DNA from: a virus
Virus record (IMG/VR): IMGVR_UViG_3300008954_002687
Coordinates: 37,444 to 101,443 of that record
Length of the DNA: 64,000 nt
Direction: 5' to 3' (one strand)
Positions 43,312 through 62,193 of the stretch are shown here, one piece after another (the first letter of the stretch is position 1; the number at the start of each line of letters is the position of its first letter). The position numbers and the translations under genes were made by a program. Below the pieces are notes generated by a model, which was not told the DNA's origin, did not search any database, and saw only the letters and a program-made list of their open reading frames with translations.

Positions 43312-43824
43312 ATGTCCAGATGGGGAAAACCAAGAAAAAACGTCAGGAGAATCGACCCACGATACTTTATGGATGAGAAGGCAGAAGTAATCAAGGAAGA
43401 AAAAGAAGTCACGCGCATGAAGGAGATTGCTGGCGTAGGCGCCGGCGCACCGTCGCCCTCCGCACGTCGAACCCCACGATTACAAACTCGCGAACCTGAC
43501 ATGACACAAGCACAAGAGCTTGCTCAAGTCCTCGCCCAAAGTCCGGCAGTCATGGCTGCTGTACAACAGGCAGCGAAGGATCCCGAAGTCCAAGCCGCTG
43601 CGCAGGAAGGTGCAGCGGAGGCAGACGCAATGCAAGAAGGCGACGGGGTGCTTGGGGGTAATCCATTATCGGATGCAGCCCTAGCTACCGGACTCGGCGC
43701 CGGCGGAATCATGATGATCGGCGCTGCAGCAGTCGCCACGCCGGCAGTATTTGCGCTGGGATTAACCGGAGGCGTGGCGTTAATGGCAATCGGAATATTA
43801 GTTAGCCAGATCGTCGAACAGTAG
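43312..43824 (+). CDS. Leader-C protein with hydrophobic C-terminus (putative internal head protein)
   Basis: 170 residues after a good ribosome site (AAGGAGAACAGC). The N-terminus carries IDPRYFMDEKAEVIKEE (residues 14-30), almost the same as in the gene at 51628 (IDPRYFMDEKTDIIKEE). The middle is Ala/Gln-rich and helical. The last ~55 residues hold two hydrophobic, Gly/Ala-rich segments (LGAGGIMMIGAAAVATPAVF and GGVALMAIGILVSQIV) that could insert into a membrane. No signal peptide. The shared leader with an I-K-E site suggests targeting to the prohead and possible ejection, with the hydrophobic tail perhaps acting on the host membrane. Inference only. Confidence 0.6.
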   Translation: MSRWGKPRKNVRRIDPRYFMDEKAEVIKEEKEVTRMKEIAGVGAGAPSPSARRTPRLQTREPDMTQAQELAQVLAQSPAVMAAVQQAAKDPEVQAAAQEGAAEADAMQEGDGVLGGNPLSDAALATGLGAGGIMMIGAAAVATPAVFALGLTGGVALMAIGILVSQIVEQ

Positions 43825-43839
43825 CTAAGGAATAAACAA

Positions 43840-43980
43840 GTGAAAATCACCAAATCCCGACTTAAAGATATTATCGAAGAAGAGCTTAGTAATTATTTGT
43901 CCAACATATACAAATGGTGCCCCTCGGGAAGCAAATGTTCTCCGGAGAAGAAAAAGACAAAGTGGTGGAAAGGAAGATGA
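43840..43980 (+). CDS. 46-residue leader-A miniprotein
   Basis: A GTG start at 43840, preceded by AAGGAATAAACAA, opens a 46-codon frame that ends with TGA 43978-43980. The product begins MKITKSRLKDIIEEELSNYL, the same leader as six longer proteins in the window, and continues with a small Cys-containing basic tail (CPSGSKC, then KKKTKWWKGR). Its stop overlaps the next ATG (ATGA). Nearly half the protein is leader, so the payload is a ~30-residue basic peptide. It could be a minimal packaged peptide or a degenerated longer gene. The conserved leader and coupling argue that it is translated. Confidence 0.6.
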   Translation: MKITKSRLKDIIEEELSNYLSNIYKWCPSGSKCSPEKKKTKWWKGR

Positions 43981-44891
43981 AGATCACAAAAACGCAGCTT
44001 AAACAAATCATCAAAGAAGAGCTAAGTTCGATAGAGGATCTTGAAGCCCGGCTTGCCGGCATGGATGCGCGCAGAGACGACGACACTCAGAAAGTCAAAC
44101 ACAGAGACGCTAGAGACGAGCTAAATGAAATAGCCCGAACCCTACAACAAATGTTTGAGTTGTCAAACCTTATGGTGCAGAAGAAGTCAGAACACTTTCA
44201 GAACACAACTGTTTATGGGTTACCCATCCGAGAACAAGGTGCCCTTAAGGAGTTGGCTGATATTACTAGAGAATACGCCAAGCATGTAAAAGGTGCCGAA
44301 TCAGAGCCAGTGACTGAAGGTCGAGGATCTGGGCATTCTGAAGTCTTAAGGCATACAAACGATGCAGTCGAGCGTATAATTAAGAAGGTTGGCTCACTAG
44401 GAGATGAGCTTGTATCCGGCGCCACTCGCGGAGGACCGTACGAGAGGATGCCAGTTGACATGTATATAGATGGCTTCGACAACTACGACGAACCCCGAAA
44501 AGTGCTCAGAGAACAAGCATTAAAATTGCGATTCGCGATTGAATATGGTTTAGATCGCCCGGTACCACCCGGGATTAGAGATAGGCTTAAAAAAGAGATC
44601 AAATCGGGATTCCTTAGTAATATGCGCGGACTTAAATCAACATATAGAGAACACATGCTGAAGATCGTTAAAGAGGAAGTCGAAGCCGCACTGGAGGAGA
44701 AAAAGATGCAAGAAGCCCCCTCAGAAGAAAAGGATGATTGGATCCAAGATGCAGAAAAAGATATTGAAAAGAGCGGCACAGAAGGTGTCTGCACCGGCGA
44801 TAAGTTTGGCGGACCTACTTGCAAGCCGGGAACGAAGAGATATAATCTAGCCAAAACATTCCGCAAGATGGCAAAGGACAAAAAGAAATGA
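43977..44891 (+). CDS. Leader-A protein, helical (putative internal head protein, 304 aa)
   Basis: I choose ATG 43977, after GGAAAGGAAG, because it puts MKITKTQLKQIIKEE at the N-terminus as in the sister proteins. An upstream in-frame start at 43914 lies inside the 46-residue gene. The body is highly charged and helical, including DLEARLAGMDARRDDDTQKV and a run of amphipathic helices. The end (CTGDKFGGPTCKPGTKRYNL and AKTFRKMAKDKKK) is basic with two cysteines. No known enzyme domain. The I12-K-E14 leader fits a prohead-protease cleavage site. It overlaps the following leader gene by four bases. Function unknown. Confidence 0.62.
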   Translation: MKITKTQLKQIIKEELSSIEDLEARLAGMDARRDDDTQKVKHRDARDELNEIARTLQQMFELSNLMVQKKSEHFQNTTVYGLPIREQGALKELADITREYAKHVKGAESEPVTEGRGSGHSEVLRHTNDAVERIIKKVGSLGDELVSGATRGGPYERMPVDMYIDGFDNYDEPRKVLREQALKLRFAIEYGLDRPVPPGIRDRLKKEIKSGFLSNMRGLKSTYREHMLKIVKEEVEAALEEKKMQEAPSEEKDDWIQDAEKDIEKSGTEGVCTGDKFGGPTCKPGTKRYNLAKTFRKMAKDKKK

Positions 44892-45226
44892 AGATTACAA
44901 AAGAACAATTGCGTAAGATTATCGCGGAAGAGGTCGCCAATGAAGGCGTCGTGAAAAAGCCTTTCGATGACTCCATGATCACTCACGATGATTATGAGCA
45001 GTCTGACGAGCCTTCTCGCGACGATACTGGCGAGCCTCCTCTTACACAACGATCACAACGCAAACTTAACCACAATCATATGCTGGCGAGAATTAACGAC
45101 GCAAAGCTTTACCTTCAACAACAAGGCGATCCAGTAGCGTCAGAGCTTTCTCAAGAGTTAGATCAGGTAATATACAGCATGGAACTGTTAAGTGATTATT
45201 TTATGGGCGATATGCCCTCTGAGTAA
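44888..45226 (+). CDS. Leader-A protein, small acidic (putative internal head protein, 112 aa)
   Basis: Starts MKITKEQLRKIIAEEVANEG. The I12-A-E14 triplet equals the I-A-E form of the T4 gp21 cleavage site, the closest match in the set. The body has an acidic, disordered-looking middle and a helical C-terminal half (ARINDAKLYLQQQGDPVASE). It overlaps the preceding gene (ATGA junction) and is followed by an 81-base regulatory gap. No enzymatic motif, cysteine or membrane segment. A small packaged protein or scaffold is suggested by the leader and not shown by the body. Confidence 0.6.
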   Translation: MKITKEQLRKIIAEEVANEGVVKKPFDDSMITHDDYEQSDEPSRDDTGEPPLTQRSQRKLNHNHMLARINDAKLYLQQQGDPVASELSQELDQVIYSMELLSDYFMGDMPSE

Positions 45227-45242
45227 TGGCACAAAAAAATAC

Positions 45243-45271
45243 TTGACAGCCTCTACTGAACAAGATATACT
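45243..45271 (+). promoter_or_regulatory. Sigma70-like promoter before SbcDC
   Basis: TTGACA (45243-45248), 17-base spacer, TATACT (45266-45271): the best consensus promoter in the window. It lies 36 bases before the TTG start of the SbcDC gene and is largely covered by a 37-base palindrome, which suggests control by a binding protein. Confidence 0.75.
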
Positions 45272-45285
45272 TGTATAGTAGAGGC
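45249..45285 (+). promoter_or_regulatory. 37-base near-perfect palindrome over the SbcDC promoter (operator candidate)
   Basis: Left arm 45249-45264 (GCCTCTACTGAACAAG) and right arm 45270-45285 (CTTGTATAGTAGAGGC) pair at 14 of 16 positions around a 5-base centre (ATATA). The centre is inside the -10 box and the left arm begins right after the -35. There is no T-run after it, so it is not an intrinsic terminator. It fits a dimeric repressor site. The right arm is probably transcribed, but most of the left arm is not, so an mRNA hairpin is less likely. Confidence 0.6.
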
Positions 45286-45307
45286 ACATTTGTGCTCGGA
45301 GGGAAGT

Positions 45308-48300
45308 TTGAAGTTTGCACACATCAGTGACACTCATATCAAAAATTTGAAGTATCACTACGAATATAGAATTGTATTCGAACAATTATACCAGACACTG
45401 CGAGAGCAGGAAGTCGATTACATCGTTCATTGCGGAGATATCGCACACACAAAGACACAGATCTCACCAGAGTTTGTGGAAATGTGTTCTGATTTCTTCC
45501 GCAGTTTAGCGGAGATTGCACCCACATATATTATATTGGGCAACCACGATGGCAATCTAAAGAATAGTAGTCGCCAAGACGCATTGACGCCGATTGTAGA
45601 TGCGTTAAACTTGCCAGCTCTGCATCTGCTCAAAGAATCTGGCGAAACCCACATAGACGATAAGTTCTGTTTGAATGTGCTTTCAGTCTTTGATCGAGAT
45701 AATTGGACAAAGCCAAGCGATACTGATAAAATCAACATCGCCCTGTATCACGGCTCAATCAGCAACTGTAAGACTGACATGAACTGGACAATGAGAAATG
45801 GCGAAGATACTCTAACTATCTTTGAAGACTTTGATTTCGCCATGCTCGGCGATATTCACCGTCGTCAATATTTAGATGAAGTAGGTCGCGTTTGGTATGC
45901 CGGCTCAACTGTACAGCAGAATCATGGCGAAACAAATGATAAGGGGATTCTCATCTGGGATATCCAGTCAAAGGATGATTGGGAAATCGAGCCCATTGTG
46001 CTTAAGAATCCAAAGCCATTCTTTACAATTCCTTTAACGATGAAGGGGCGCATGCCACGCAAGATTGATGTGCCAACCGGCGCTCGTCTGCGCTTGGTGA
46101 GCAACAACAATCTTCCGCTCAATGTGATGAAGCGCGCAATGGATATCGCCAAACACCGATTCAAACCGGAGAGCATCTCGTTTTTGAACAGAGCCACCGG
46201 TGAACGCGGAAATGTTGAAGATATTACAGACGGACTCAAGACCGAGAACTTGCGAGATCCAAAGATTCAGGAAGAACTTATCGATGAGTACCTTAAGGAC
46301 TATCAGGTGCCCTCTGAGACGCTCGAAAAAGTTTATGAACTCAATCGGGCTTACAACAAAATTATTGAGGAGACAGAGGAAGTCTCGCGCAATGTAAACT
46401 GGAAACTTAAGACCTTTGAGTTTGACAATCTGTTTAATTATGGAACAGACAATTCAATTAATTTTGAAAATATGGGTGGTATCATCGGCATCTTTGGAAA
46501 GAACTTTTCCGGAAAGAGTTCTGTGATTGATGCTGCATTATATACTTTGTTTAATACGACGTCCAAGAACGAACGCAAAAACTTAAACGTCATTAATCAG
46601 AACAGAGATTCATGCGCAGGCAAGCTCACTATCGAGTCAAACAATAAGGTCTATACGGTTGAAAGGAAATCAGAGAAGTACGTTAAGAGGCTTAAGGGCG
46701 AGGAAACCCTAGAAGCCAAAACCGATTTGAATTTTGAAGTATATGATCGCATCACCGAAGAAACAACATCTCTGAACGGAACAACGCGAAATCAGACAGA
46801 TGCAATTATCAGAAAGCATTTTGGTTCTATCGATGATTTCATGGTATCTTCGCTAGCCTCGCAGCATGGTGCGTTAGCATTTATTGATGAGGGCTCTACT
46901 CGACGTAAAGAGATCATTGCTAAGTTCTTGGACCTGGAGATTTTTGAAAAGAAGTTTAGGATGTCCAAGGAAGACTCGGTAGAAGCCAAAGTCTTGATTA
47001 AGAAGCACGAAGACCGAGACTATGGGGCAGACATCACCGCCGCCACGAAGGAGTTGAATAAGTATCAGAACAAATCAGAGAAGAACAAGAGCCTCTGTGA
47101 ATCCTTGCGTATTAAGCTTAATACATTGACGGATGTTGTGCGCTTATTGGAAGAACAAATCAAAGCGACTCCCTCGGAAGTGGTGGACATTACTAACTTG
47201 CGCAAAGAGCACAAAAAGAAAGTTAATTCTATTGTTGCTTTGGGCGAAACAATCAAAGAACAATCGCAGTTCATATCTCTCAAGAGCGAGGAAATCGCGG
47301 CAACCGAGAAGCTACTCGGCGCGATAGATCACCAGAAGAACCTTGAGAATAAGTTGTCGATTGAGAAATTAGATGAAACGATTGCCTCGTTAAATCAAGA
47401 ACTAGAGAGTATCGTTAAGAAACAGAAGCTGCTAGAGGGAATCCCGTGCGGTGATTCGTTCCCAACGTGCAAGTTTATTAGAGATGCACACGTCTCAGTT
47501 GCCACAAGGGATATTGCAGCTAACGAGCGCGATAAGTCCATAGAAGCCCGCAGCGCATTAAATCCCGAAGAAATCGAGTTGGAGATTGAAGAACACAACG
47601 CTTTACAAATAAAGTCTTTAAATTTTGAAAAAGAGATTTCTGAGTTGAAGCTTAAGCGAGAGCGCAACAAGGCTACAAAATCTAAGATAGAATTATCTTT
47701 GAAAGATATTACTAATCAAATTAAGGAATACGAAGAAAATAAAGAAGCAATTGAGAATCTTGAGAAACTTATAAAGGAAAAAGATAAGCACCAAAAAGAC
47801 ATGAACAGTAAGCAGAATGAGATAACGACTTGCGAACAAGAGACTTTAGATATCGTTAAACTCGTTGGTTCTTGCGAACAAAAGATTGAAAACTTGCGAG
47901 AGCAACAAACTGAATACAAAGAACTACAGAACTCATATGCAGCCTACGATCTGTTTATGCAGTGCATGCACCCAAACGGAATTGCATACGATGTGATTAA
48001 AAAGAAGATTCCTGTTATCAATCAAGAGATAGCGAAGGTGTTGGCAAATATTGTAGATTTTGAAATTTTCTTTGAGAGTTCTGGTAATAAGTTTGACATC
48101 TTTATCAAGCACCCTCTATACGACGAGCGCCCTATTGAAATGGCGTCTGGCGCAGAGAAAACCATGGCGGCGATGGCAATTCGTTTGGCTCTTCTGAGTG
48201 TCTCTTCACTGCCCAAAAGCGACTTATTCATCCTCGACGAGCCCGGCACAGCATTAGATGAAGAAAATATGGAAGGTTTTATTAGGATCTTAGAACTAAT

Positions 48301-48415
48301 TAAAGTGTATTTTAAGAACGTTTTGTTGATCTCGCACCTTGATTCGCTCAAAGACTGTGTTGACATGCAAATTGTAATTGAAAAGAAAAATGGATATGCA
48401 AGAGTAAACCAATAA
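45308..48415 (+). CDS. Fused SbcD-SbcC (gp47-gp46-like) recombination exonuclease
   Basis: 1,035 residues from TTG 45308, chosen because GGAGGGA (45298-45304) sits just upstream and the protein then begins MKFAHISDTHI. Residues 1-330 are the Mre11/SbcD phosphoesterase: SDTH, HCGDIAHT, LGNHDG, ALYHGS, LGDIHRRQY. From about 370 comes the Rad50/SbcC ATPase: Walker A GKNFSGKSS (about 395-403), coiled coils, a hook-like CGDSFPTC (about 714-721), SGAEKTMAAMAIRLA signature (about 946-960) and Walker B DLFILDEPGTALDEEN. In T4 these are two proteins that resect ends for recombination-dependent replication. Here they are one chain. All catalytic motifs are present. The hook is C-x6-C instead of the usual CxxC. 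Confidence 0.93.
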   Translation: MKFAHISDTHIKNLKYHYEYRIVFEQLYQTLREQEVDYIVHCGDIAHTKTQISPEFVEMCSDFFRSLAEIAPTYIILGNHDGNLKNSSRQDALTPIVDALNLPALHLLKESGETHIDDKFCLNVLSVFDRDNWTKPSDTDKINIALYHGSISNCKTDMNWTMRNGEDTLTIFEDFDFAMLGDIHRRQYLDEVGRVWYAGSTVQQNHGETNDKGILIWDIQSKDDWEIEPIVLKNPKPFFTIPLTMKGRMPRKIDVPTGARLRLVSNNNLPLNVMKRAMDIAKHRFKPESISFLNRATGERGNVEDITDGLKTENLRDPKIQEELIDEYLKDYQVPSETLEKVYELNRAYNKIIEETEEVSRNVNWKLKTFEFDNLFNYGTDNSINFENMGGIIGIFGKNFSGKSSVIDAALYTLFNTTSKNERKNLNVINQNRDSCAGKLTIESNNKVYTVERKSEKYVKRLKGEETLEAKTDLNFEVYDRITEETTSLNGTTRNQTDAIIRKHFGSIDDFMVSSLASQHGALAFIDEGSTRRKEIIAKFLDLEIFEKKFRMSKEDSVEAKVLIKKHEDRDYGADITAATKELNKYQNKSEKNKSLCESLRIKLNTLTDVVRLLEEQIKATPSEVVDITNLRKEHKKKVNSIVALGETIKEQSQFISLKSEEIAATEKLLGAIDHQKNLENKLSIEKLDETIASLNQELESIVKKQKLLEGIPCGDSFPTCKFIRDAHVSVATRDIAANERDKSIEARSALNPEEIELEIEEHNALQIKSLNFEKEISELKLKRERNKATKSKIELSLKDITNQIKEYEENKEAIENLEKLIKEKDKHQKDMNSKQNEITTCEQETLDIVKLVGSCEQKIENLREQQTEYKELQNSYAAYDLFMQCMHPNGIAYDVIKKKIPVINQEIAKVLANIVDFEIFFESSGNKFDIFIKHPLYDERPIEMASGAEKTMAAMAIRLALLSVSSLPKSDLFILDEPGTALDEENMEGFIRILELIKVYFKNVLLISHLDSLKDCVDMQIVIEKKNGYARVNQ

Positions 48416-48427
48416 GGAGTCAACAGC

Positions 48428-48958
48428 ATGAAAATTACCAAATCGCAGCTTCGAAGCGTAATCAGAGAAGAAATAGAAAACACCGTCGATGAGGGTTTTG
48501 TGGACTCTATCAAGGGCGCCCTCGGTCTTGGCGGCAAGAAAGCAGCCCCAGCAGCCGATCCAATGGCAAATGTCCCAGAAGATGAGCGCGAAGACTATGA
48601 AGAATTTCGTAGTGGAGGCGCCGCCGGTCAATTCAAGTGGGAAGATGCCCGAGGACAGAACTTCGACGATACGAGTTCATATGAGGCTTACCAGGACTTC
48701 TTAAAATGGAGAACCAAGCATGTAGCTGACTCCGAACAACATCGACAGGCTCAATGGGATATTGAGCAAGCCAGGAAGAAGCGCGGCTCTGGAAGATCGT
48801 CGTCATCGTCGTCGTCGTATCGACGTGATAAATCCCCTGCCCATCGCGCATCCAGCGCTGTTGGTTCATCTAACCTTGCTTACGGCGAATCCATAGAGAA
48901 GATTAAGGACATTATTAGAGAAGTGCTACAAGAGATTCAAGGAGATAAAAAACAGTGA
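48428..48958 (+). CDS. Leader-A protein with Ser/Arg tract (putative internal head protein, 176 aa)
   Basis: ATG 48428 after AAGGAGTCAACAGC. The N-terminus MKITKSQLRSVIREEIENTV has the leader with I12-R-E14. It then has a Gly/Ala/Lys stretch, a Trp-containing charged helix (DFLKWRTKHVADSEQH), a low-complexity tract (SGRSSSSSSSYRRDKS, about residues 121-137) and a C-terminal helix IEKIKDIIREVLQEI that itself resembles the leader. No enzyme motif. The basic Ser/Arg tract could bind DNA inside the head. It overlaps the next GTG start by four bases. Confidence 0.6.
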   Translation: MKITKSQLRSVIREEIENTVDEGFVDSIKGALGLGGKKAAPAADPMANVPEDEREDYEEFRSGGAAGQFKWEDARGQNFDDTSSYEAYQDFLKWRTKHVADSEQHRQAQWDIEQARKKRGSGRSSSSSSSYRRDKSPAHRASSAVGSSNLAYGESIEKIKDIIREVLQEIQGDKKQ

Positions 48959-49980
48959 AACTTTTAATGGAAAACTGGCGTAAATTTGTTAATGAACAAG
49001 AAGAAGCCGCACAACAAGGATTTGCCCAAATAACTCCCGATACTAATATTGGAGCCGTCAAGGCTGATGAACTCTGGAGGCAGCTTGTGTCCGGACAGGA
49101 GAGTCCGCTCTATAATGCGATGAAAAATGCCACTGGCTGGGCAAGCGGCGTCTTGGGCACCCCAGAACAAGTTAAACAAAGGTTTGGGCAGATTGGACAA
49201 GAAGCCTTCATAGCGAGAGTTCAACAAGTTCAAAAACTGATCTCTACAGCAAAAACAGCTAAATTTAATATGCCTGCTCTGGAGGGCGGAGACGCCGATG
49301 CAGTAGTAGATGCACTAAGCGATCAAGATGGCGCCTTGGGAGTTGATCTAAGTTCGAAATTTGCGAACCAAATCGAAAGCTTTAAAGAGTGGTGGGAGGC
49401 ACTACCCGAGCCGATTAAACAGATGTACGAAGCAGGGAAGATCCCATCTGTAGAACAAGTACAGCAAGCAACCCAACAGACCCCCCAACAAAACGTCAGT
49501 GAAGACAAGTTTCCACGATTTGGAAAAGGTCCAATGCCCGGCGCCCCCGCTGTTGGAGAAAAAGAACAAATCAATCTTAAAAATATTAAGGGCGCCGCAT
49601 TGGCGTTCTTAACCAAAGGGATGCTCGACGGCGCGCCGGGTGACGCTGTAGCCGTTGAAAAAGACGCCGGCGCCACAAACTCAAAAATGATTCCAACGCA
49701 AAGTAATATTTTGGCAGCTAAGTCACTATTATTTGCATACAACAATCCAGCAAAACAACTCAAAGATATGGGCGGAGCCTTTGTCACTAGTGATGGAAAG
49801 ATTCTCGACGGTCACCATCGTTGGTCAGGCGCCCTTATCGGTACCGGTGGTGCACTTCAGCATACCGGCGTTCATATTGTTAAGGCGCCAGCCGATGCAG
49901 TCATCCCTCTTTTGGTTACGGTAGGGAACGCACTTGGTCGCCAGCAAAAGGGTCCCAATCCCGAAGACGAAAACCAGTAA
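48955..49980 (+). CDS. Leader-B protein with ParB/sulfiredoxin-like C-terminal domain (341 aa)
   Basis: GTG 48955 overlaps the previous stop (GTGA). The leader MKLLMENWRKFVNEQEE places Trp8 and Glu14 like the leader of the gene at 51141. The middle (about 30-200) is helical and Gln-rich. The C-terminal part contains GGAFVTSDGKILDGHHRWSG (residues about 263-282) followed by HTGVHIVKAPAD: the DGHHRW core is typical of the ParB/Srx-like fold used by ParB nucleases, sulfiredoxin and some serine kinases. T4 packages the enzyme Alt in its head, and this protein could be an analogous ejected enzyme. Activity and substrate are unknown. Confidence 0.65.
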   Translation: MKLLMENWRKFVNEQEEAAQQGFAQITPDTNIGAVKADELWRQLVSGQESPLYNAMKNATGWASGVLGTPEQVKQRFGQIGQEAFIARVQQVQKLISTAKTAKFNMPALEGGDADAVVDALSDQDGALGVDLSSKFANQIESFKEWWEALPEPIKQMYEAGKIPSVEQVQQATQQTPQQNVSEDKFPRFGKGPMPGAPAVGEKEQINLKNIKGAALAFLTKGMLDGAPGDAVAVEKDAGATNSKMIPTQSNILAAKSLLFAYNNPAKQLKDMGGAFVTSDGKILDGHHRWSGALIGTGGALQHTGVHIVKAPADAVIPLLVTVGNALGRQQKGPNPEDENQ

Positions 49981-49995
49981 AATAAGGAATAAACA

Positions 49996-51144
49996 ATGTC
50001 TGATAACGAAAATAAAGATGACAAAAACGAATTTGATTTTCTGCCTCCCGCAGAGCCACCACCCTCCTTTAATCAGGAGAAAGACCACTATCACGAAGAA
50101 GTCGCAGCAGAGGATTTCGGCATGGTTGAGGACTTCGGTCTCCAGATGGAATATTCTGATGAAGATCTCCTCCCAGAAAACACTGCCCCTTCTTCGATTA
50201 ATGTGGGCTTTGTTGGCGTTGGCGGCGGAGGCAACAAAATGGCGAACGCCTTCATTGAACTTGGATTCAACAAAACACTGATGGTAAACTCCACAGGGAA
50301 AGACATTCCGAAGAACGTCGAAGAAGATCACGTCGTTCTTATCCCCGATAGCGACGGCATCGGAAAGAACGTCGTTTACGGCAAAGAGATTCTTTCCCAA
50401 AATGGCGCCATCGTTGAAGATGCACTTCGTATTAAGCTTGGAAAAGTCGATTGGCTTTTCGTTATGGCTGGTGGAGGCGGCGGAACCGGCAGTTCGGTAA
50501 CCGCGCTGCAGCCAGTCTTCGAAAGATATATGCAATCAGTTCAGGCTTCTGGAAAAGTGGTCTATATTGTTTCTTGGCCAACCGCGCAAGAGGCACTGAA
50601 CCCGACTATCGCTCGCAACGCGCTTACGCTCGTGAATGACGTTGCCCGCCATCCGCACATCGTTCTCGACAACGAACGTGCCACACGATTACTCCGCGGC
50701 AGAATCGGCATGCTTGGCATGTATCCTGTCGCTAACACAACATTTGCTAAGTCACTTGCTCAAGTTTTAAAACTCTCCACCGAGGATTCACCGATCCAAT
50801 CTTTCGATTCTAAAGATTTGGAAACTTGCTTGAGCAATAATGGCAGAGCCTTTATGGGCTCAACAATGATAAAAGATCCAAATACAGCAAAGCTTGGATC
50901 GGTGATCCTTCATAACTGTATGAATCGTTCTGCGTGTCCGCCCCCCAAGGGGAAGGCAGGCGCCGGTTCGTTAGTGTTGGTGGTCTCGGAAGAGATGGTG
51001 GCTGACCCAAAGGTCAGTAAAAACATTGAGTCTGCAATCGCTTATGTCGGCGGTCGGTGCGAGACACTTTTCTCTGGCGTTTACGTGCGCAAGAATGTGC
51101 CCGGATTGATTGCGATACTAAGTATGAATGGATTAGCAACATGA
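49996..51144 (+). CDS. FtsZ/tubulin-superfamily GTPase
   Basis: 382 residues, ribosome site AAGGAAT. An acidic N-terminal extension (about 65 residues) precedes the GTPase. VGFVGVGGGGNKMANAF (about 71-87) matches the FtsZ first loop. AGGGGGTGSS (about 157-166) is the tubulin signature G-box. SFDSKDLETCLSNNGRAFMG (about 269-288) aligns with the FtsZ T7 loop region, keeping two acidic residues needed to activate GTP hydrolysis in the neighbouring subunit. Phage tubulins such as PhuZ position replicating phage DNA. A role in organising the cell or disturbing host FtsZ is possible. The assignment to the superfamily is strong; the role is open. It lacks a head-targeting leader. Confidence 0.87.
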   Translation: MSDNENKDDKNEFDFLPPAEPPPSFNQEKDHYHEEVAAEDFGMVEDFGLQMEYSDEDLLPENTAPSSINVGFVGVGGGGNKMANAFIELGFNKTLMVNSTGKDIPKNVEEDHVVLIPDSDGIGKNVVYGKEILSQNGAIVEDALRIKLGKVDWLFVMAGGGGGTGSSVTALQPVFERYMQSVQASGKVVYIVSWPTAQEALNPTIARNALTLVNDVARHPHIVLDNERATRLLRGRIGMLGMYPVANTTFAKSLAQVLKLSTEDSPIQSFDSKDLETCLSNNGRAFMGSTMIKDPNTAKLGSVILHNCMNRSACPPPKGKAGAGSLVLVVSEEMVADPKVSKNIESAIAYVGGRCETLFSGVYVRKNVPGLIAILSMNGLAT

Positions 51145-51605
51145 ACAAACTATTTGAAAATTGGCGAAAGTACACAAACGAAGCAGCATACGAACCCGGT
51201 CGTGCTGTTGCCGATATTGATACTGGCGAAGATTACATGAGCCCCGAAGAAATTAGGGACGAAGAGGTACAAGACTTGGCTGACAAGTTTAATGTCGAAG
51301 CCTTCGTTGAGATTGCTAGCGATGGAAAGCCTTCTATTATAGTAAAGCACCAAGACGGCAAATTGTCAATGTATAACGACACAGAAGAGATGTACAAAGA
51401 GTTAGCAAGCCGACAAGAAATGAATGAAGCAGCTGAACCACATTCAGCCTCTCACGTCGTTAAAAAGATGATGAAAACAGGACTAAGTGCTAAGGAAGCG
51501 CTAAAGAGTTTAACTCATGATCTTTCTGATGAAGAAGCTGAGCGTTGGCTTGAGCGCCACAAGGATGAAATGGATAGTGCTGAACAAGATTTAGCAAGCC
51601 GATAA
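51141..51605 (+). CDS. Leader-B protein (putative internal head protein, 154 aa)
   Basis: ATG 51141 overlaps the FtsZ-like stop (ATGA); I reject the upstream in-frame start at 51057. The N-terminus MNKLFENWRKYTNEAAYEPG matches the leader of the gene at 48955 over ENWRK and has Glu14, although the residue at -3 is Thr rather than Leu/Ile. The acidic body has a short beta region (FVEIASDGKPSIIVKHQDGK) and a helical C-terminal half with repeated EE/DE pairs (LSDEEAERWLERHKDEMD). No enzyme motif or membrane segment. Classified with the leader set by its N-terminus. Confidence 0.58.
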   Translation: MNKLFENWRKYTNEAAYEPGRAVADIDTGEDYMSPEEIRDEEVQDLADKFNVEAFVEIASDGKPSIIVKHQDGKLSMYNDTEEMYKELASRQEMNEAAEPHSASHVVKKMMKTGLSAKEALKSLTHDLSDEEAERWLERHKDEMDSAEQDLASR

Positions 51606-51627
51606 TAAATATAAAAGGAATAATATA

Positions 51628-51951
51628 ATGGCATTTAGAAAAAACAAGAAGTTCATTGATCCTCGTTACTTTATGGACGAGAAGACTGATATTATTAAAG
51701 AAGAGATTGAGGAGGCGCGCCTTCCTGCATGGGAACGCCCGGTCCACACACCGCCCGAAGAAGAAAGATTTACTGGCGGCTCCATTGATATTGAACCACT
51801 CTCCGATGAAGAACAAGAAGCTTCTTACGATGCCTATTACGAATTGCATAGTTTCTTGCTGGATTCGGACCTCCCCGGCAACAAACCATCAGATAAGCTA
51901 CGTCACGCCCTTCGTTGGATTGCAAAATTTGAAAAGCAAGGTATGGGTTAA
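51628..51951 (+). CDS. Leader-C protein (putative internal head protein, 107 aa)
   Basis: ATG 51628 after AAAAGGAATAATATA. The leader FIDPRYFMDEKTDIIKEEIE (residues 9-28) is nearly identical to that of the gene at 43312, with the same I-K-E triplet. The rest differs completely: a Pro/Glu-rich linker and a helical C-terminus (LRHALRWIAKFEKQGMG). Two proteins sharing only their first ~30 residues indicates that the leader is a mobile module with its own function. No enzyme motif. It is followed after 4 bases by a leader-A gene. Confidence 0.6.
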   Translation: MAFRKNKKFIDPRYFMDEKTDIIKEEIEEARLPAWERPVHTPPEEERFTGGSIDIEPLSDEEQEASYDAYYELHSFLLDSDLPGNKPSDKLRHALRWIAKFEKQGMG

Positions 51952-51955
51952 CAAC

Positions 51956-52813
51956 ATGAAAATCACAAAATCACAACTCAAAGAAATTATACGAGAGAAT
52001 ATCGACTCGCTTCCGATTGAGAATTTAATCGGCGGAATCAGCAGTCTCGTCGACGGCATGGATCCGGAGTTGGTGGGTGTTGTTTTCACCACTGTCTTCA
52101 AGGAGATGGAGGGAGGCAGTCCGCCACCCGAAACAAGTGAAGAGCCGGAAGCGACCCAACAAATTGGCTTTGATAGGGAACCTGAAGAAGTATCCAATAG
52201 AGCACCAGAGCGCATCGGCTTCGAAGAGAGCTTGATAAAAGTAATCAAAGAAGAAATGAGTACCGATTCCGCCCTTTTAAGCGCGATCAATAAATTAGCA
52301 GACAAGATTGATAACTTAGATGTTAGTGTTGATTACTTAGCCGCTTCTGTTACCGGCGAAGATCCTCTCTCTCTTGGGTATGGACAGGCAGCGTTTGGCA
52401 GAGCCGCCCGCAAGAAGAAGATTCAACCGCCGGCGGAATTAGCCGAGATCATCGAACAAGAGATCGCAGAGGCGCTAGGTACGGGCAGAATGGCTCCAGT
52501 AGCTCGCACTCTCTCTCGCGCAGGGATCGCCCAGCGCTCAGAACCAACAAGAACAGAGTTGATGAAATTAATAGCTGCCTTAGACACCGGAGACCCAGAG
52601 GAATTACAACAACTAGCCGATATGGTGGCACAACTCATGGACGCAGCTAGCGAAAATATTGAACAAGATTACGGCTTAGAAGAGGTGTCTTCCGAGAAGC
52701 AACGCCGCTGGGCTTGCGCACAAAAAGACAAGCCCGCCGATGAAAGAGCAGACAGCTTATCCGCAGCAGAGGCAGAAGAGATGTGTACATCCAAAGTGGA
52801 AGAAGACGCATGA
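51956..52813 (+). CDS. Leader-A protein, helical, with Cys-containing C-terminus (285 aa)
   Basis: I choose ATG 51956, which gives MKITKSQLKEIIRENIDSLP at the N-terminus; the longer in-frame reading from 51656 overlaps the previous gene and lacks sense. Several internal I-x-E triplets occur (VIKEEMS at about residue 96, IIEQEI at about 162), so it could be cut into pieces by the prohead protease. The body is helical and acidic. The C-terminus (KQRRWACAQKDKPADE, then AEAEEMCTSKVEED) has two cysteines about 30 residues apart and may form a small metal-binding or disulphide unit. Function unknown. Confidence 0.6.
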   Translation: MKITKSQLKEIIRENIDSLPIENLIGGISSLVDGMDPELVGVVFTTVFKEMEGGSPPPETSEEPEATQQIGFDREPEEVSNRAPERIGFEESLIKVIKEEMSTDSALLSAINKLADKIDNLDVSVDYLAASVTGEDPLSLGYGQAAFGRAARKKKIQPPAELAEIIEQEIAEALGTGRMAPVARTLSRAGIAQRSEPTRTELMKLIAALDTGDPEELQQLADMVAQLMDAASENIEQDYGLEEVSSEKQRRWACAQKDKPADERADSLSAAEAEEMCTSKVEEDA

Positions 52814-52856
52814 CCGGAAGAGGAAGGCTTAGTTTAAGCTAATAATTGGAGACAAG

Positions 52857-53054
52857 ATGATGGAATATGTACAAGGCAAACTAGACAGATTAGTCGAGAA
52901 AATGATTTCTCGGAAGTTTCTTGTATGGCTAACCGCAACAGGACTCCTCGCATTTTCAGACTTACAGTCGGGCGACTGGGTAATTATTTCAGCAATTTAC
53001 ATTGGGGGTCAAACTGTCATCGATGGTATCGCTAAACTTAAGGGTGTCGCGTGA
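52857..53054 (+). CDS. Holin-like small membrane protein
   Basis: 65 residues. ATG 52857 (a second ATG follows at once), preceded by TTGGAGACAAG. Two hydrophobic segments are visible: FLVWLTATGLLAFSDL (about residues 20-35) and WVIISAIYIGGQTVIDG (about 41-57), with a charged N-terminus. The size, topology and place before a spanin-like gene suit a phage holin. A general small membrane protein is the alternative. Its stop overlaps the next GTG (GTGA). Confidence 0.55.
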   Translation: MMEYVQGKLDRLVEKMISRKFLVWLTATGLLAFSDLQSGDWVIISAIYIGGQTVIDGIAKLKGVA

Positions 53055-53437
53055 ATTGGTCGGCAGTAATTAAATTTGGTTTAAAGTACTGGCGAGAACT
53101 GCTGGTCGTTGGCTCCCTCCTTGCAGTTGTAATTAAGACACAGCTTGATTATCGTGCGCTTAATAAAGCGTATGAGATTTCGCAACAAAGCCTCCAAGAA
53201 CAAGTAGAGGGTTTACAAAAGATTCACGAGGAAGAACTTAAGAAGCGAGACGCGGCATTGAGGAGCTACCGTACAACTCTTGAAGAAATCGAAAGAGGCT
53301 ATTTAGAATCTCAAGAAGAAGTCGAAAGATTAAAAAAACAGAAAAGAGATCGTTTAGAGAAAAGCTATTCATCGAACCCGGAGGATTTAGCCAATGAGAT
53401 TGTTAATACTTATGGCTTTGAGCGCACTGCTGAGTAA
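53051..53437 (+). CDS. Inner-membrane spanin-like (Rz-type) protein
   Basis: 128 residues from GTG 53051. An N-terminal transmembrane helix (ELLVVGSLLAVVIKTQL, about residues 16-32) is followed by a long charged coiled coil (residues about 35-105, rich in Glu, Gln, Lys, Arg). This is the layout of lambda Rz-type i-spanins, which span the periplasm and fuse the membranes at lysis. The last 44 bases overlap the next gene in another frame, as in many Rz/Rz1 pairs. The context with the holin-like gene supports a lysis cassette. Confidence 0.62.
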   Translation: MNWSAVIKFGLKYWRELLVVGSLLAVVIKTQLDYRALNKAYEISQQSLQEQVEGLQKIHEEELKKRDAALRSYRTTLEEIERGYLESQEEVERLKKQKRDRLEKSYSSNPEDLANEIVNTYGFERTAE

Positions 53438-53825
53438 TCCGGCACTCGGCGCCGACAACGGAAGGTTTACCTTTTTGGGGAAAAATCAATGCGCGCCATA
53501 CGAGGGTGTCCTGTTCGACCCAAAAGCAACCGCTCACATCCTTGCGGATCGGTTTGCCTTAAATAACGATTGCGAGATAAGGATGAAATATCAACTGGAT
53601 ATACAAGCAGCAGACTATGATCTACAATTACAAAACTTACAGATTCGCCACGAAGCCCTTTTGCAAGAATATGTTTTACGAATTGATTCGCTAGAACGCG
53701 AGAGTGGTGCGCTAGCAAATGCTCTTAAAAAACAAAGTAAAAAAAATCCTGCACTTTGGGTGACAATTGGGGTAGCATCTGGAATAGCACTAAGCTACGG
53801 TGCATATAAGGTGTTTAATGAGTGA
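53394..53825 (+). CDS. Secreted/membrane protein in the lysis-like cassette
   Basis: 143 residues, ATG 53394 with GGAGG (53380-53384). It begins with a signal peptide (MRLLILMALSALLSNPALGA) and has a C-terminal hydrophobic helix (ALWVTIGVASGIALSYGAYK, about residues 119-138) after a coiled-coil region. No cysteine follows the signal peptide, so it is not a lipoprotein o-spanin of the classic kind. The two cysteines are in the mature part. It could be an unusual spanin partner or an inner-membrane-anchored periplasmic protein. The overlap with the Rz-like gene favours a linked role. Confidence 0.55.
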   Translation: MRLLILMALSALLSNPALGADNGRFTFLGKNQCAPYEGVLFDPKATAHILADRFALNNDCEIRMKYQLDIQAADYDLQLQNLQIRHEALLQEYVLRIDSLERESGALANALKKQSKKNPALWVTIGVASGIALSYGAYKVFNE

Positions 53826-54204
53826 GAAAGATTTAAATGAGGTAGCTGCCATTGAGCGCGCAATCGCTGCGAAATATGGTGAAGAAGCCATTAAAAATCC
53901 TCGGTCCGATTGGGACGAGACCAAAGAAAAAGAATATCTTCAGCAAATGAAAGAACTCTATCGCCACGCTTCTAAGAATAAAGAGTGGGAAGAAAAAGTC
54001 GACGTTAATGGGATAAAGGTTACAAAAAAACTACTTAATAGAGAATCTTTAAAAACTTGTCCTGTCTGCGGAAATTTTCCAAAGAGTGCAATGGATGATG
54101 TCTGTCTTGTAAAATTTGATTGTTGCAATAATTGTTACATTGAATATGTAGAAGATAGAGAAGAAAGATGGAAAAAAGGCTGGAGACCAAATGAGAATCA
54201 ATAA
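53818..54204 (+). CDS. Zinc-ribbon-like small protein, unknown
   Basis: ATG 53818 overlaps the previous gene by 8 bases and is preferred to the upstream GTG 53800. The product is 128 residues with a helical, charged N-terminal half and a cysteine cluster in the C-terminal half: CPVCGNFP, then a single Cys, then CCNNC before a basic Trp-rich end (RWKKGWRPNENQ). The cysteine spacing suits one or two zinc sites. No family recognised. A nucleic-acid or protein-binding helper is possible. It overlaps the next leader gene by 14 bases. Confidence 0.55.
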   Translation: MSEKDLNEVAAIERAIAAKYGEEAIKNPRSDWDETKEKEYLQQMKELYRHASKNKEWEEKVDVNGIKVTKKLLNRESLKTCPVCGNFPKSAMDDVCLVKFDCCNNCYIEYVEDREERWKKGWRPNENQ

Positions 54205-54496
54205 ATCACAACTTAAACAAATTATTAGAGAAGCAATTGCTGAGTCCGACATCGGAACTGCCGTCTCGGACCTCGGCGGCTCTGCAAAGACGACCGTCAA
54301 GAACCAAGCAGTGCAGAAGTTTATCGAGCAGGTGGGTGTGCGCCTATCGAAGGTTAGCCGCAGCGCCCAAGTAGAATTTTTAAAAGGCTTGATGCAGACG
54401 CTTGACATCGATCCATCGCTACTAACACAAGTGAAGACCGCTGTTCAGAAAGACCAAAGAGCTGCCGCCGCAGCACCACAAGGAGAACCCCAATAA
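54191..54496 (+). CDS. Leader-A protein (putative internal head protein, 101 aa)
   Basis: Begins MRINKSQLKQIIREAIAESD, a variant of the leader with I12-R-E14 followed by Ala, the residue type often found after the cut in T4. The body is mainly helical (KFIEQVGVRLSKVSRSAQVE, then LDIDPSLLTQVKTAVQ) with an Ala/Pro/Gln tail. No cysteine, membrane segment or enzyme motif. Overlaps both neighbours (14 bases upstream, TAATG downstream). Assigned to the leader group by its N-terminus. Confidence 0.6.
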   Translation: MRINKSQLKQIIREAIAESDIGTAVSDLGGSAKTTVKNQAVQKFIEQVGVRLSKVSRSAQVEFLKGLMQTLDIDPSLLTQVKTAVQKDQRAAAAAPQGEPQ

Positions 54497-55047
54497 TGGC
54501 AACAGTTTACGAAATAGTTCAAGGCTTATCACAAGCCGCAGCAAACGCATATGACGGTGCGCTTGGAGAAGATCAGTCGCCAGTAACCGTAGGCGCCCTG
54601 CGCAGAGAAGAGGGCAACGCCCTTATCGATCAGAGGGTCATGGACGGCTTCAACGTGAAGTTTTACGGAGACATGATGTGTCTCACATATCAGTCCGATA
54701 TTCAACTCAGAGAGGTTTATGCCGGCGGATTTGAAGAAGAGATTGAGCAAAGACTTGTTGATATTTCTGGATGGCTCAAGAAAGAGTATAAGAGAATCAC
54801 TGGCGAATCAGTCAAGCTGACCAAAGAGGGCGAAGCTGATGTGCGCGTTGAGAACTCTTCCCGTGTTCGTTCATGGGTTGTGGCTAAGCTCCACTTTCGC
54901 GTTGGTGGTCTATCCGAGCAAATGAACGTCGACAACAGCGGCTCCACCAATCCCGTAGAGGCTAGCTGGAAAAAGTTTTTGGATCTTGGTGGCTGGAATG
55001 GCGAAGGCGGCAAGCGCCCCGACAACGATAAAAGAAAGAAAGAATAG
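54496..55047 (+). CDS. Head/neck-region protein, unknown (183 aa)
   Basis: ATG 54496 shares its first A with the previous stop (TAATG). It has no leader. The protein is mixed alpha/beta with a central region EEEIEQRLVDISGWLKKEYK and a basic C-terminal tail (GEGGKRPDNDKRKKE). No catalytic motif or membrane segment is seen. It lies shortly before terminase and portal, a place where neck, head-completion or packaging cofactors often occur. Function not recognisable. Confidence 0.5.
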   Translation: MATVYEIVQGLSQAAANAYDGALGEDQSPVTVGALRREEGNALIDQRVMDGFNVKFYGDMMCLTYQSDIQLREVYAGGFEEEIEQRLVDISGWLKKEYKRITGESVKLTKEGEADVRVENSSRVRSWVVAKLHFRVGGLSEQMNVDNSGSTNPVEASWKKFLDLGGWNGEGGKRPDNDKRKKE

Positions 55048-55050
55048 ACA

Positions 55051-55308
55051 ATGAAATTCTCCAAATTATACCTTAAGCAGATCATCAAAGAAGAGATCTC
55101 AAGTGTTTTGCGCGAGGGTCATTATCATGATATGGGCGGTGAAGACGAGACATATGATGTCCTCGATCCCCACGGAATCGAAGATATGTCCGATGCTGAG
55201 CTTGTCGACATGATGCATGTAGATGGAATGGAAGAAATGATTGTTCTGGACGGAGAAGGGGATCTTGCAAATCGCGAAGAAGTTATAGCAGCATTGAAAG
55301 ATGTATGA
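55051..55308 (+). CDS. Leader-A protein, small acidic (85 aa)
   Basis: Begins MKFSKLYLKQIIKEEISSVL, a diverged form of the leader that still has I12-K-E14. The rest is strongly acidic and Met/Asp-rich (DMSDAELVDMMHVDGMEEMI, then DLANREEVIAALKDV) and looks like a small helical domain. The stop overlaps the terminase ATG (ATGA), so it is translated just before the terminase. It could be an internal protein or, by position, a small terminase-associated factor. The leader favours the first. Confidence 0.58.
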   Translation: MKFSKLYLKQIIKEEISSVLREGHYHDMGGEDETYDVLDPHGIEDMSDAELVDMMHVDGMEEMIVLDGEGDLANREEVIAALKDV

Positions 55309-56888
55309 CGTTCCAATTAGACAAAAAACAACAAGTTAAAGAAATACTTAAATGCGGGAAGGAACCCGCTTATTTTTTAAAGACTTACGCAAGAATTTCC
55401 CATCCCATGTATGGGCTTATTTTATTTGATACTTATGATTTCCAAGACGACCTTCTTAAAGATTTTAATGATTATCGCTTTAATGTTATTTTAAAGGCGC
55501 GCCAGTTAGGGATTTCAACAATCACTGCTGGCTATATTGTTTGGTTGATGTTGTTTCACCGTGACAAATCAATTCTTGTTATGGCGACCAAATTTGCAAC
55601 AGCGGGCAACTTAGTAAAGAAGGTCAAGGGCGTTATGCGCAACTTGCCAGATTGGCTTAAGATCGCCACAATTGACGTGGATAACCGGACTTCCTTTGAG
55701 CTTTCTAATGGGTCATCTATCAAAGCAGCGTCTACCTCTGGTGATGCCGGTCGTTCTGAGGCACTGTCTTTGCTGGTTCTTGATGAGGCTGCACACATTG
55801 AAGGACTTGAAGAACTGTGGACCGGTCTGTATCCTACACTATCAACTGGTGGGCGATGCATAGCACTTTCAACGCCCAACGGGGTCGGTAACTGGTTCCA
55901 TAAAACATGTATGGATGCTGAAGGCGGCAGCAATAACTTTAACCTTACAACACTCCAGTGGGACGTTCACCCCGAGCGTGATGAAGCTTGGTATAAGAAA
56001 GAAACCAAGAACATGTCAAAACGCCAGATTGCACAAGAGCTTGAGTGCAATTTCAATACTTCTGGCGAGACTGTCATAGACCCTGACTGTATGAAGTGGC
56101 TATTAGAAAATGTTAAAGAGCCAAAGCACAGAACCGGCTTTGATCGCAATTTCTGGATTTGGGAAGAATTCGATCCCACATGTAACTATCTTGCGGTGGC
56201 AGATGTTTCGCGAGGCGATGGCGCTGACTATTCAACATTACACATGATTAAATTAGAGACGCTGGAAATCGTGGGCGAGTATCAAGGGAAGCCAACGCCC
56301 GATATGTATGCAAACTTCTTGAATCAAGTAGGGAGAGAATTTGGAAATGCGATGCTTGTAGTAGAGAACAATAACATCGGTTACACGGTTCTCGATAAAC
56401 TCGTTGAACACGGTTATCCAAATTTGTACTACTCTATTAAGTCTACACATGAGTATATAGAGCAACATCAAGCAGAAGTTAGAAACTCTGCCGTTGCCGG
56501 GTTCACAACCTCAATGAAGACGCGCCCGCTCATCGTTGCGAAATTAGAGGAGTTTATCAGAAACAAACTAATTAAGATATATTCATCTCGCACAATTAAT
56601 GAGATGAAAACTTTTATTTGGAAGAACGGTAAACCACAGGCAATGAAAGGATATCATGATGATCTCATCATGGCGCTAGCGATTGCTTGCTGGGTGAGGG
56701 ACACAGCATTGCAATCAAACGCACGAGACCTAAACTATCAAAAAGCTTTTGTGAATGCCATTGTTACTTCGAAGACTTCTATGAACACTCAAATTAACGG
56801 ACAACAAGGCTACAAAAAAGATAATATTTTTGATAAAATGGGTGAAGCAAAAGAATTATACGATCAGTATAAATGGATTATTAAGTGA
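55305..56888 (+). CDS. Terminase large subunit, gp17-like
   Basis: 527 residues. The ATPase half has a Walker-A-like KARQLGISTITAGY (about residues 62-75), FATAGNLVKKVKG, and Walker B LLVLDEAAHIE (about 155-165), followed by ALSTPNGVGNWF as motif III. The nuclease half starts near 290 with an acidic DVSRGDGADYS, has LVVENNNIGYTVLD, and ends with GYHDDLIMALAIACW (about 449-463). This is the motor that pumps DNA into the prohead and cuts concatemers. The portal gene follows after 8 bases. No intein or insertion seen. Confidence 0.95.
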   Translation: MTFQLDKKQQVKEILKCGKEPAYFLKTYARISHPMYGLILFDTYDFQDDLLKDFNDYRFNVILKARQLGISTITAGYIVWLMLFHRDKSILVMATKFATAGNLVKKVKGVMRNLPDWLKIATIDVDNRTSFELSNGSSIKAASTSGDAGRSEALSLLVLDEAAHIEGLEELWTGLYPTLSTGGRCIALSTPNGVGNWFHKTCMDAEGGSNNFNLTTLQWDVHPERDEAWYKKETKNMSKRQIAQELECNFNTSGETVIDPDCMKWLLENVKEPKHRTGFDRNFWIWEEFDPTCNYLAVADVSRGDGADYSTLHMIKLETLEIVGEYQGKPTPDMYANFLNQVGREFGNAMLVVENNNIGYTVLDKLVEHGYPNLYYSIKSTHEYIEQHQAEVRNSAVAGFTTSMKTRPLIVAKLEEFIRNKLIKIYSSRTINEMKTFIWKNGKPQAMKGYHDDLIMALAIACWVRDTALQSNARDLNYQKAFVNAIVTSKTSMNTQINGQQGYKKDNIFDKMGEAKELYDQYKWIIK

Positions 56889-60273: not shown

Positions 60274-61203
60274 ATGTCAGAAATGCATTTAATTATGAAT
60301 GGGTGGCGAGGTTACCTCCTCCAAGAGTATAAGAACCAAACGCTTTTTGAAGACACAGCATATATTGCGGGCGTACTTGGGATCGTACTCCCTCTTACTG
60401 AGTCGGGCAATATTGCCCCTCTAAGCGAAGAACTTAAAAAACAAATTCTGCATGAGCAAATGTTGTTTGAATCCTTTTGGGATGACGCGGTCCAAACGGT
60501 TAAGGACGCCGCCGGAAAAGTTGCCGGCAAGTTTATCGACGCTGCCGAGGGGATTAAAAAGTTTGGCAAAGAAGGTTGGGCTATCGTAAAACAACTGTAT
60601 CGAGTTGCAACAAACCCAGATCTAATTCCCAATTTCACGGGCGCCATATGGAAAGTAAATTTAAGACACAAGTGGCGCACCGGTCTAAAGCCCATATTGG
60701 AAGATTTAATACAAAGATTGCCGACGTGGGATATGCCCAACTTTGCTTCTATCGCACAAAGAGCCTTAGACACTATAAATAAAGTAATCGAGTCGGTTAA
60801 ATCCCTGTCAGGATGGAAGAAGGCAATCGCCACTGCTGGATTATCCATAGGGTTTACGTGGATATGGGAAAAGGTTAAAGATTTTATAGAAGGCTATAGA
60901 ACGTGGAGTAAAAAGCTTGAATCGGATGAGAGTGAAGGAATGGCAGAACAGTTTAAGACTTGGCTCAAAGCCGCAGTCAACAGCACCTTTTTAAATGTTT
61001 TAAAGACTCAGTTTGTTGGAATGGTAGAAAAACTCATTTCAGTATCTACGGGCGTCAAGGGATGGTGGGATGCAGCAGTCTCTGCAGTCGGCGGCGTCCA
61101 GTTGGTTATCAAAGCCCTCGGCACTTCTTTATCGAGATTCTCGCGCTACACGGGCGGTGGAAAAAAGATAAACCTTAGCAAGTACACTGCTGCTACAACT
61201 TAA
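60274..61203 (+). CDS. Amphipathic helical protein with leader-B-like start (putative internal/ejection protein, 309 aa)
   Basis: ATG 60274 after TAGGAGAGAGCA. The first residues (MSEMHLIMNGWRGYLLQEYK) resemble leader B (Trp-Arg then L-x-E: L-L-Q-E at 15-18). More L/I-x-E triplets follow (TLFED, ILHEQMLFE). From residue 70 on the protein is a chain of amphipathic and hydrophobic helices with many Trp, Ala and Gly (DAAGKVAGKFIDAAEGIKKF, AIATAGLSIGFTWIWEKVKD). This texture is found in membrane-inserting ejection proteins. It lies directly before the prohead protease gene region. Function inferred from leader and composition. Confidence 0.58.
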   Translation: MSEMHLIMNGWRGYLLQEYKNQTLFEDTAYIAGVLGIVLPLTESGNIAPLSEELKKQILHEQMLFESFWDDAVQTVKDAAGKVAGKFIDAAEGIKKFGKEGWAIVKQLYRVATNPDLIPNFTGAIWKVNLRHKWRTGLKPILEDLIQRLPTWDMPNFASIAQRALDTINKVIESVKSLSGWKKAIATAGLSIGFTWIWEKVKDFIEGYRTWSKKLESDESEGMAEQFKTWLKAAVNSTFLNVLKTQFVGMVEKLISVSTGVKGWWDAAVSAVGGVQLVIKALGTSLSRFSRYTGGGKKINLSKYTAATT

Positions 61204-61587: not shown

Positions 61588-62193
61588 GTGGGTCAGAAGT
61601 TACTTAGAGAATATTATGAACTCTGCGAAGGCGGCATTTGTCAAGACTTGCTGACTGAAGAAGAGAAGGCATATGTCGCTGATGGCGGCATGTACCTTAC
61701 TGGAATTATTCAGAAAGCAGACACAGTTAACGGCAACGGTCGAGTTTATCCTCACAAGGTCCTCATGCGCGAGATAAAGAACTATGAAAAATTAGTTAGC
61801 GAGCGCCGAGCTTTGGGAGAGTTGGACCACCCTGACGACTCTGTGATCAACCTTAAGAACGCGTCCCACATGATGACCAAAGTTTGGTGGGACGGCAAAA
61901 ATGTGATGGGCAAAGCCAAAGTGCTCGATACTCCGTCCGGTCAGGTCTTAAATTCCCTAGTGAAAGCCGGCGTAAGCATCGGCATTTCGTCTCGGGGAAT
62001 GGGTTCTGTATCGGAATCCGCCGGCAACACAGTTGTTGAAGACGATTTCCAGCTTATCTGCTTTGATTTTGTATCTGAACCTTCCACGCCCGGCGCCTTT
62101 ATGATGAAAGAAGCTAAAGGATACACCAACAGAGTGTTCACCAAAGCGGACCGCATCAACAGATTATTAAACGAGGTACTTGAAGATGAGTGA
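61588..62193 (+). CDS. Prohead core protease, gp21-type
   Basis: I take GTG 61588, which has AAAGGA at a 7-base distance, over TTG 61567; the product is 201 residues, close to T4 gp21. The diagnostic blocks are NGNGRVYPHKVL, RALGELDHPDDSVINLKNAS (His81 as catalytic His), and GVSIGISSRGMGSV (Ser134 or Ser135 as nucleophile), followed by FDFVSEPSTPGAFM. The enzyme cleaves scaffold, capsid and internal proteins after [L/I]-x-E during head maturation. Its presence next to many proteins with I-x-E leaders underlies the main hypothesis of this annotation. Overlaps the next gene by 8 bases. Confidence 0.92.
   Translation: MGQKLLREYYELCEGGICQDLLTEEEKAYVADGGMYLTGIIQKADTVNGNGRVYPHKVLMREIKNYEKLVSERRALGELDHPDDSVINLKNASHMMTKVWWDGKNVMGKAKVLDTPSGQVLNSLVKAGVSIGISSRGMGSVSESAGNTVVEDDFQLICFDFVSEPSTPGAFMMKEAKGYTNRVFTKADRINRLLNEVLEDE

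Follow-up and report, generated by a model that had tools for sequence, protein, structure and literature searches.

The internal proteins of T-even phages have an N-terminal leader as their sole common feature (PMC12373910), while the T4 cargo that this leader carries varies among related phages (PMC9026906, PMC12373910). The prohead protease gp21 of T4 recognizes an L/I-x-E cleavage motif (PMC9026906), and all three T4 internal proteins are inhibitors of type IV restriction enzymes (PMC12373910). In the giant phages phiKZ and SPN3US, N-terminal head propeptides are removed after x-x-Glu by the prohead protease, and the paralogs gp53 and gp54 have identical N-terminal 15 residues (PMC5694885). 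In P1, the N-terminal 30 residues of DarB suffice for entry of a reporter into the head (PMC9024508). Here, we describe three families of short N-terminal leaders (A, B and C) encoded in a 64,000-nt stretch (hereafter the window) of the 101,443-base record of an uncultured T4-like phage, IMGVR_UViG_3300008954_002687, the remainder of which was also read. Judged by their sequences and by analogy, these leaders are likely to be cleavable capsid-targeting propeptides, as on the T4 internal proteins, placed on a large set of cargo.

Leader A comprises the first 14-16 residues (consensus MKITKxQLKxIIKE) and is common to seven genes of the window, the bodies of which are unrelated beyond it:

43840..43980, + strand: leader A protein of 46 amino acids (aa), GTG start, MKITKSRLKDIIEE14; counterparts in related contigs (L035, L030, L198)
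43977..44891, + strand: leader A protein of 304 aa, ATG start, MKITKTQLKQIIKE14; no match in Pfam and PHROG profile searches
44888..45226, + strand: leader A protein of 112 aa, ATG start, MKITKEQLRKIIAE14
48428..48958, + strand: leader A protein of 176 aa, ATG start, MKITKSQLRSVIRE14
51956..52813, + strand: leader A protein of 285 aa, ATG start, MKITKSQLKEIIRE14; 14 homologs
54191..54496, + strand: leader A protein of 101 aa, ATG start, MRINKSQLKQIIRE14
55051..55308, + strand: leader A protein of 85 aa, ATG start, MKFSKLYLKQIIKE14; body equivalent to the C-terminal domain of longer proteins among relatives

These are the seven genes listed in the initial annotation of this DNA, which had also claimed an invariant Ile12 and Glu14 and bodies with nothing in common past about residue 16. 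Each gene was recovered at its position and on the + strand, I12 and E14 are present in 7/7, and the mean pairwise amino acid identity drops from 0.60 (residues 2-16) to 0.11 (17-31) and 0.06 (32-43). The L/I-x-E motif that closes the segment, a hallmark of T4 capsid targeting, is thus found in every leader A of the window. The leaders are short and charged and lack a hydrophobic core.

Families B and C had been overlooked in that inventory. With them, the record totals 14 genes with a clear leader (7 A, 5 C, 2 B) and about three looser ones. Leader C (consensus MKLLxENWRKF[LIV]NE14, or MKLLxENWRKF[LIV]xE14 in a looser form with residue 13 written x) is clear at record positions 4639, 5669 and 6289 and at window positions 48955 and 51141. 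Leader B (FIDPRYFMDEKxxIIKE), with its presumed site around residue 25-29, is clear at window positions 43312 and 51628. Looser C-like starts occur at record position 10171 and at window positions 60274 and 62186. The window genes concerned are:

43312..43824, + strand: leader B protein of 170 aa, reading ..RIDPRYFMDEKAEVIKE
48955..49980, + strand: leader C protein of 341 aa, GTG start, MKLLMENWRKFVNE14; PHROG 2859 match in the body (function unknown), which also contains DGHHRW, reminiscent of ParB-like domains
51141..51605, + strand: leader C protein of 154 aa, MNKLFENWRKYTNE14
51628..51951, + strand: leader B protein of 107 aa, reading ..FIDPRYFMDEKTDIIKE
60274..61203, + strand: gene between portal and protease with the C-like start (M)HLIMNGWRGYLLQE, a weaker match
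62186..64000, + strand: gene directly after the protease gene, open to the contig end, with the C-like start MSDWSSFKDAKKRSDAWKGFLAE/S

The site at residue 14 is conserved in sets that were assembled independently of it. Among leader C starts selected without requiring E14 (n=86), E14 is present in 68/86 (background 9.8%, p~1e-51) and L/I at residue 12 in 75/86 (p~6e-10). When leader A starts are picked by residues 1-8 alone, I/V/L12 is present in 59/59 and E14 in 53/59; E15 and a hydrophobic residue 16 are conserved too. A hydrophobic-x-Glu end recurs in three leader families with differing upstream sequence. Across 172 homologous pairs, conservation is 0.74 at residues 2-8 and 0.72 at E14, compared with ~0.46 in the body, and dips to ~0.3 at residues 16-18 before returning to the body level.

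In public viral contigs, leaders A and C front hundreds of proteins. Body clustering of the tagged proteins of at least 110 aa (n=383) yielded 231 unrelated clusters, so that, as in T4 capsid targeting, a short N-terminal segment (about 7-20 aa in that system) stands on otherwise unrelated proteins. Conversely, related bodies can bear different leaders. Between L072 (leader A) and L201 (leader C), homology sets in at A15, directly past E14, with 57% identity over 65 aa. The protein at window position 51141 (leader C) matches L043 (leader A) at 80% over 60 aa, and a different part of its body matches L100 (leader B); L005:5669 of this record (leader C) matches L044 (leader A) with E=8e-18. By these alignments, the leaders are interchangeable on homologous bodies, the clearest pair swapping exactly between E14 and A15. 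A leaderless HAD homolog begins MKTLFIFDFDDT, where its tagged counterpart reads MKLLLENWKKYLNE/SKLRVFDFDDT. In the AlphaFold model of the tagged HAD-like enzyme of the record, the predicted local distance difference test (pLDDT) score falls below 50 only at residues 1-3 and 5-16, while the body averages ~87. A leaderless HAD protein (L116:4018-5448, - strand) contains an internal leader-A-like stretch (MKITKRHLKRIIKKALIEH) and is possibly a two-gene fusion.

The capsid-targeting sequence (CTS) of T4 IPI, IPII, IPIII and Alt resembles the present system in being a short N-terminal peptide on unrelated proteins, with an L/I-x-E end and an accompanying gp21-type protease and T4-type head genes. 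The wording of the peptides differs: the MKTYQEFIAE of IPII/III is not homologous to leader A, B or C, and only the K-F-[LI]-x-E end is alike in leader C. The propeptide end of IPIII (MKTYQEFIAE/A, with the slash marking the propeptide end) does resemble the leaders. Unlike T4, the phage described here has several leader families and many more tagged genes (14 clear and several weaker ones, although the 101-kb record is incomplete), and its predicted cargo extends to proteins of kinase-like, HAD, NUDIX and P-loop type. The propeptides of T4 gp24 (MAKINELLRE/S) and gp22 (MLKEQLIAE/A) resemble leader A in length and in their hydrophobic-x-Glu end, but belong to single structural proteins and form no shared tag. 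The phiKZ/SPN3US propeptides are comparable in their N-terminal position and removal after x-x-Glu (PMC5694885), but are mostly >100 residues long, end in A-x-E, serve few substrates and do not tag unrelated proteins; the 14-residue leaders end in L/I/V-x-E and show neither the A-x-E motif nor the long propeptide. The P1 Dar proteins have no consensus among them and no shared short leader family. Analogous repeated starts occur in Flavobacterium phage immuto (NC_055915), among the nearest cultured relatives by terminase: MKKSxLRxIIKE three times, (M)ENxFDLKKFLVEN three times, and MKKVMGNLADLLLEE on a deoxyribonucleotidase. Their wording is not the same as that of A, B or C, and no virion structural proteomics of immuto was found in the literature. 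We file the leaders as a variant that would work like the T4 capsid-targeting system. The principle is already known from T4; what seems to be new is the tags themselves, how many there are and that they can be interchanged.

Searches with fully degenerate codons recovered leader A in at least 120 stretches of public viral contigs, and leader C in 115; a relaxed codon pattern undercounts leader A, as it excludes ACA/ACG threonine codons. The motif always lies at a start codon. The reversed leader A motif gave 0 matches in all viral contigs, shuffled-leader decoys averaged 0-0.2 matches for each set, and one loose leader A match occurred in 1.13 Mb of random viral sequence (120 loci), which together exclude chance for leader A. 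Leaders A and C co-occur in the same phages, leader A being present in 28/115 loci picked solely for leader C versus 1/120 random loci (p=6e-9). Abundance in cellular proteins, named in the initial annotation as evidence that would count against a virion tag, was not observed: cellular genomes (257 Gb) contain only 10 stretches in six genomes, most on viral-looking contigs of metagenome-assembled genomes (MAGs), and a general cellular motif is rejected on these numbers. One MAG carries all seven of its leader copies and a gp21-type protease on a single contig; a second has seven copies on one 101-kb contig and the protease on another. By tblastn, leaders A, B and C had no convincing match in 50,697 GenBank phage records, a search with short queries and of limited sensitivity, which also left the immuto variants unlisted. 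No mention of the leader motifs was found in the literature.

The head module of the window comprises the following genes, the first two without a leader:

55305..56888, + strand: large terminase (T4 gp17 type), PF03237
56897..58924, + strand: portal (T4 gp20 type), PF07230, 4.3e-79
61588..62193, + strand: gp21-type (S77) prohead protease, PF03420, E=6.7e-35; phrog_207, 2.8e-57

The PF03420 match confirms the gp21-type protease predicted at 61588, where a GTG start suits the relatives better than the longer open reading frame (61567). The protease bears its own LLTE site ahead of the catalytic domain, and an L-T-E site occupies this place in 21/23 protease N-termini (the window and 22 relatives); one of the two others reads IIKES, as leader A does at its end. 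Among relatives, capsid proteins including the major capsid protein carry LTE, LLE and LLRE sites. The protease is encoded in 34/50 leader contigs and in 19/19 of those ≥130 kb; among 30-100 kb contigs, it was found in 11/24 with a leader versus 3/22 controls (p=0.03). Of the 16 leader contigs that lack it, 15 also lack the T4 portal and terminase, so these fragments probably do not include the head module. In 19/20 head modules, a gene shortly after the protease (L388:4693-5082 and equivalents) begins MKKSxLKxxIKPLVKECIxEVLxEEG, which resembles leader A; leader A may mimic that start. A ribosomal protein S21-like gene also lies beside the head protease (L388:5089-5331, PF01165, E=7e-11) and is annotated in Mel-JY01 (L128:21404-21631) as well.

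In the proposed mechanism, the leader, a short stretch at the N-terminus that is probably helical and ends in hydrophobic-x-Glu, would dock its protein onto the prohead core late in infection. The gp21-type protease would cut after E14, freeing the mature protein within the head, from where it would pass into the host during DNA ejection. We infer packaging, cleavage and injection by analogy with T4. The prohead-targeting tag put forward in the initial annotation remains the best-supported reading, given the swaps at E14, the leaderless homolog, the leader C site, the rarity in cells and the LTE/LLE sites; its argument from a protease nearby proved weak. Several observations weigh against this reading. 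The protease is likewise encoded in 6/6 control contigs ≥130 kb, and these leaders occur in 0/9 random contigs ≥100 kb, though 7 of the nine carry the protease. The 19/19 association in large leader contigs is thus consistent but not diagnostic, and protease presence as proof was rejected, since equal-sized random controls carry the protease as well. A 125-kb fragment (G015) has one leader A gene (L406:(-)688) alongside a portal and terminase of T4 type, yet no protease was detected in it, a hidden Markov model of 23 proteases giving nothing below E=0.39. One leader match is chromosomal (WOR-3 MAG), and three of the five leader C genes of the record have V, V and T at residue 12, which is therefore not strictly L/I.

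The leaders could instead be uncut helices that dock proteins onto the prohead core or elsewhere in the virion, with E14 conserved for binding. The entire leader is conserved rather than the site alone, and E15 and the hydrophobic residue 16 of leader A suggest that the unit may extend beyond the supposed cut. We nevertheless regard permanent docking as unlikely: in homologous pairs, conservation drops directly past residue 15, the boundary between E14 and A15 is exactly where the clearest natural swap falls, and the hydrophobic-x-Glu end persists in three families despite different upstream sequence. It is quite improbable that the leader directs proteins elsewhere (baseplate or tail, membrane, a compartment built by the phage) or serves as a label for a chaperone of host or phage origin. 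The tubulin-like and FKBP-type proteins encoded in the record and the many bodies without known function fit such a destination, but a short, charged leader without a hydrophobic core that ends in a head protease motif does not, and nearby replication, repair, terminase and portal proteins are leaderless.

Two further explanations place the signal in the history or the sequence of the DNA itself. Several tagged genes are immediate neighbours, as would be expected of remnants of a recent within-phage gene duplication with bodies since diverged, and the constant position at the start codon would suit a nucleotide signal for translation or recombination. Both conflict with the codons: where leader residues are identical, 46% of codon pairs differ synonymously among the seven window genes for leader A, and 37% for leader C. 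The leader A divergence indicates selection on the peptide, with neither a recent DNA copy nor a nucleotide signal. Recent duplication, which would also have to account for 231 clusters of unrelated bodies across many phages and for leaders swapped on homologous bodies, was rejected on the codon divergence and the clusters and is very improbable; a nucleotide signal, refuted by the codon divergence and at odds with recovery of the motif by fully degenerate codons, has a negligible chance of being correct. Building on capsid targeting, a more tentative proposal, which we consider possible though rather doubtful, is a general protein-loading code, in which several interchangeable or location-specific tags (A, B, C and more) are read by the prohead core, each virion delivers dozens of different effectors, among them kinase-like, phosphatase-like and nucleotide-hydrolase proteins and many without a known function, and new effectors arise by fusing any gene to a tag.

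Few of the 90 cluster representatives have known domains; those found are protein kinase (2), NUDIX, DnaJ, HD, exonuclease, P-loop kinase-like, NT5C nucleotidase and pentapeptide repeats. Two tagged proteins of the same record are encoded outside the window. L005:4639-5667 is protein-kinase-like (PF00069, 31.9 versus a cut-off of 31.7 bits), with a GxGxxG loop, a beta-3 lysine region, DVHSGN and DLG; its AlphaFold model (pLDDT 53) was too weak for use. L005:6289-6972 is HAD-phosphatase-like, with the motifs DxDxT, TAR, K and D-S. For the HAD model, Foldseek returned nothing below E=0.001, and its best matches mingled methyltransferases with HAD proteins, so the assignment rests on these motifs. 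The two genes are closely spaced, and neither was matched in the 50,697 GenBank phage records. Untagged window genes encode a primase, Mre11-Rad50-like, tubulin-like, terminase and portal proteins. The Tubulin/FtsZ-family protein (49996-51144; PF00091, E=1.4e-8) is encoded between tagged genes, a 1041-aa open reading frame (45290-48415) joins a metallophosphoesterase and an SMC-type ATPase and resembles a T4 gp47-gp46 fusion, and an FKBP-type peptidyl-prolyl isomerase gene lies at 41717-42271 (PF00254, E=6e-22).

By analogy with T4, the tagged set, which includes protein kinase-like and phosphatase-like cargo, is most likely packaged in the virus head so as to be injected into the host. If so, a leader A, B or C at a start codon would mark the predicted injected set of T4-like phages in a large, mostly uncultured group. 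The natural leader swaps predict that the tags would work for loading cargo into phage heads. As inhibition of type IV restriction enzymes is common to the three internal proteins of T4, the tagged proteins, which number in the hundreds and for the most part have no known relatives, would then become directly testable candidates for anti-defence and host-takeover functions.

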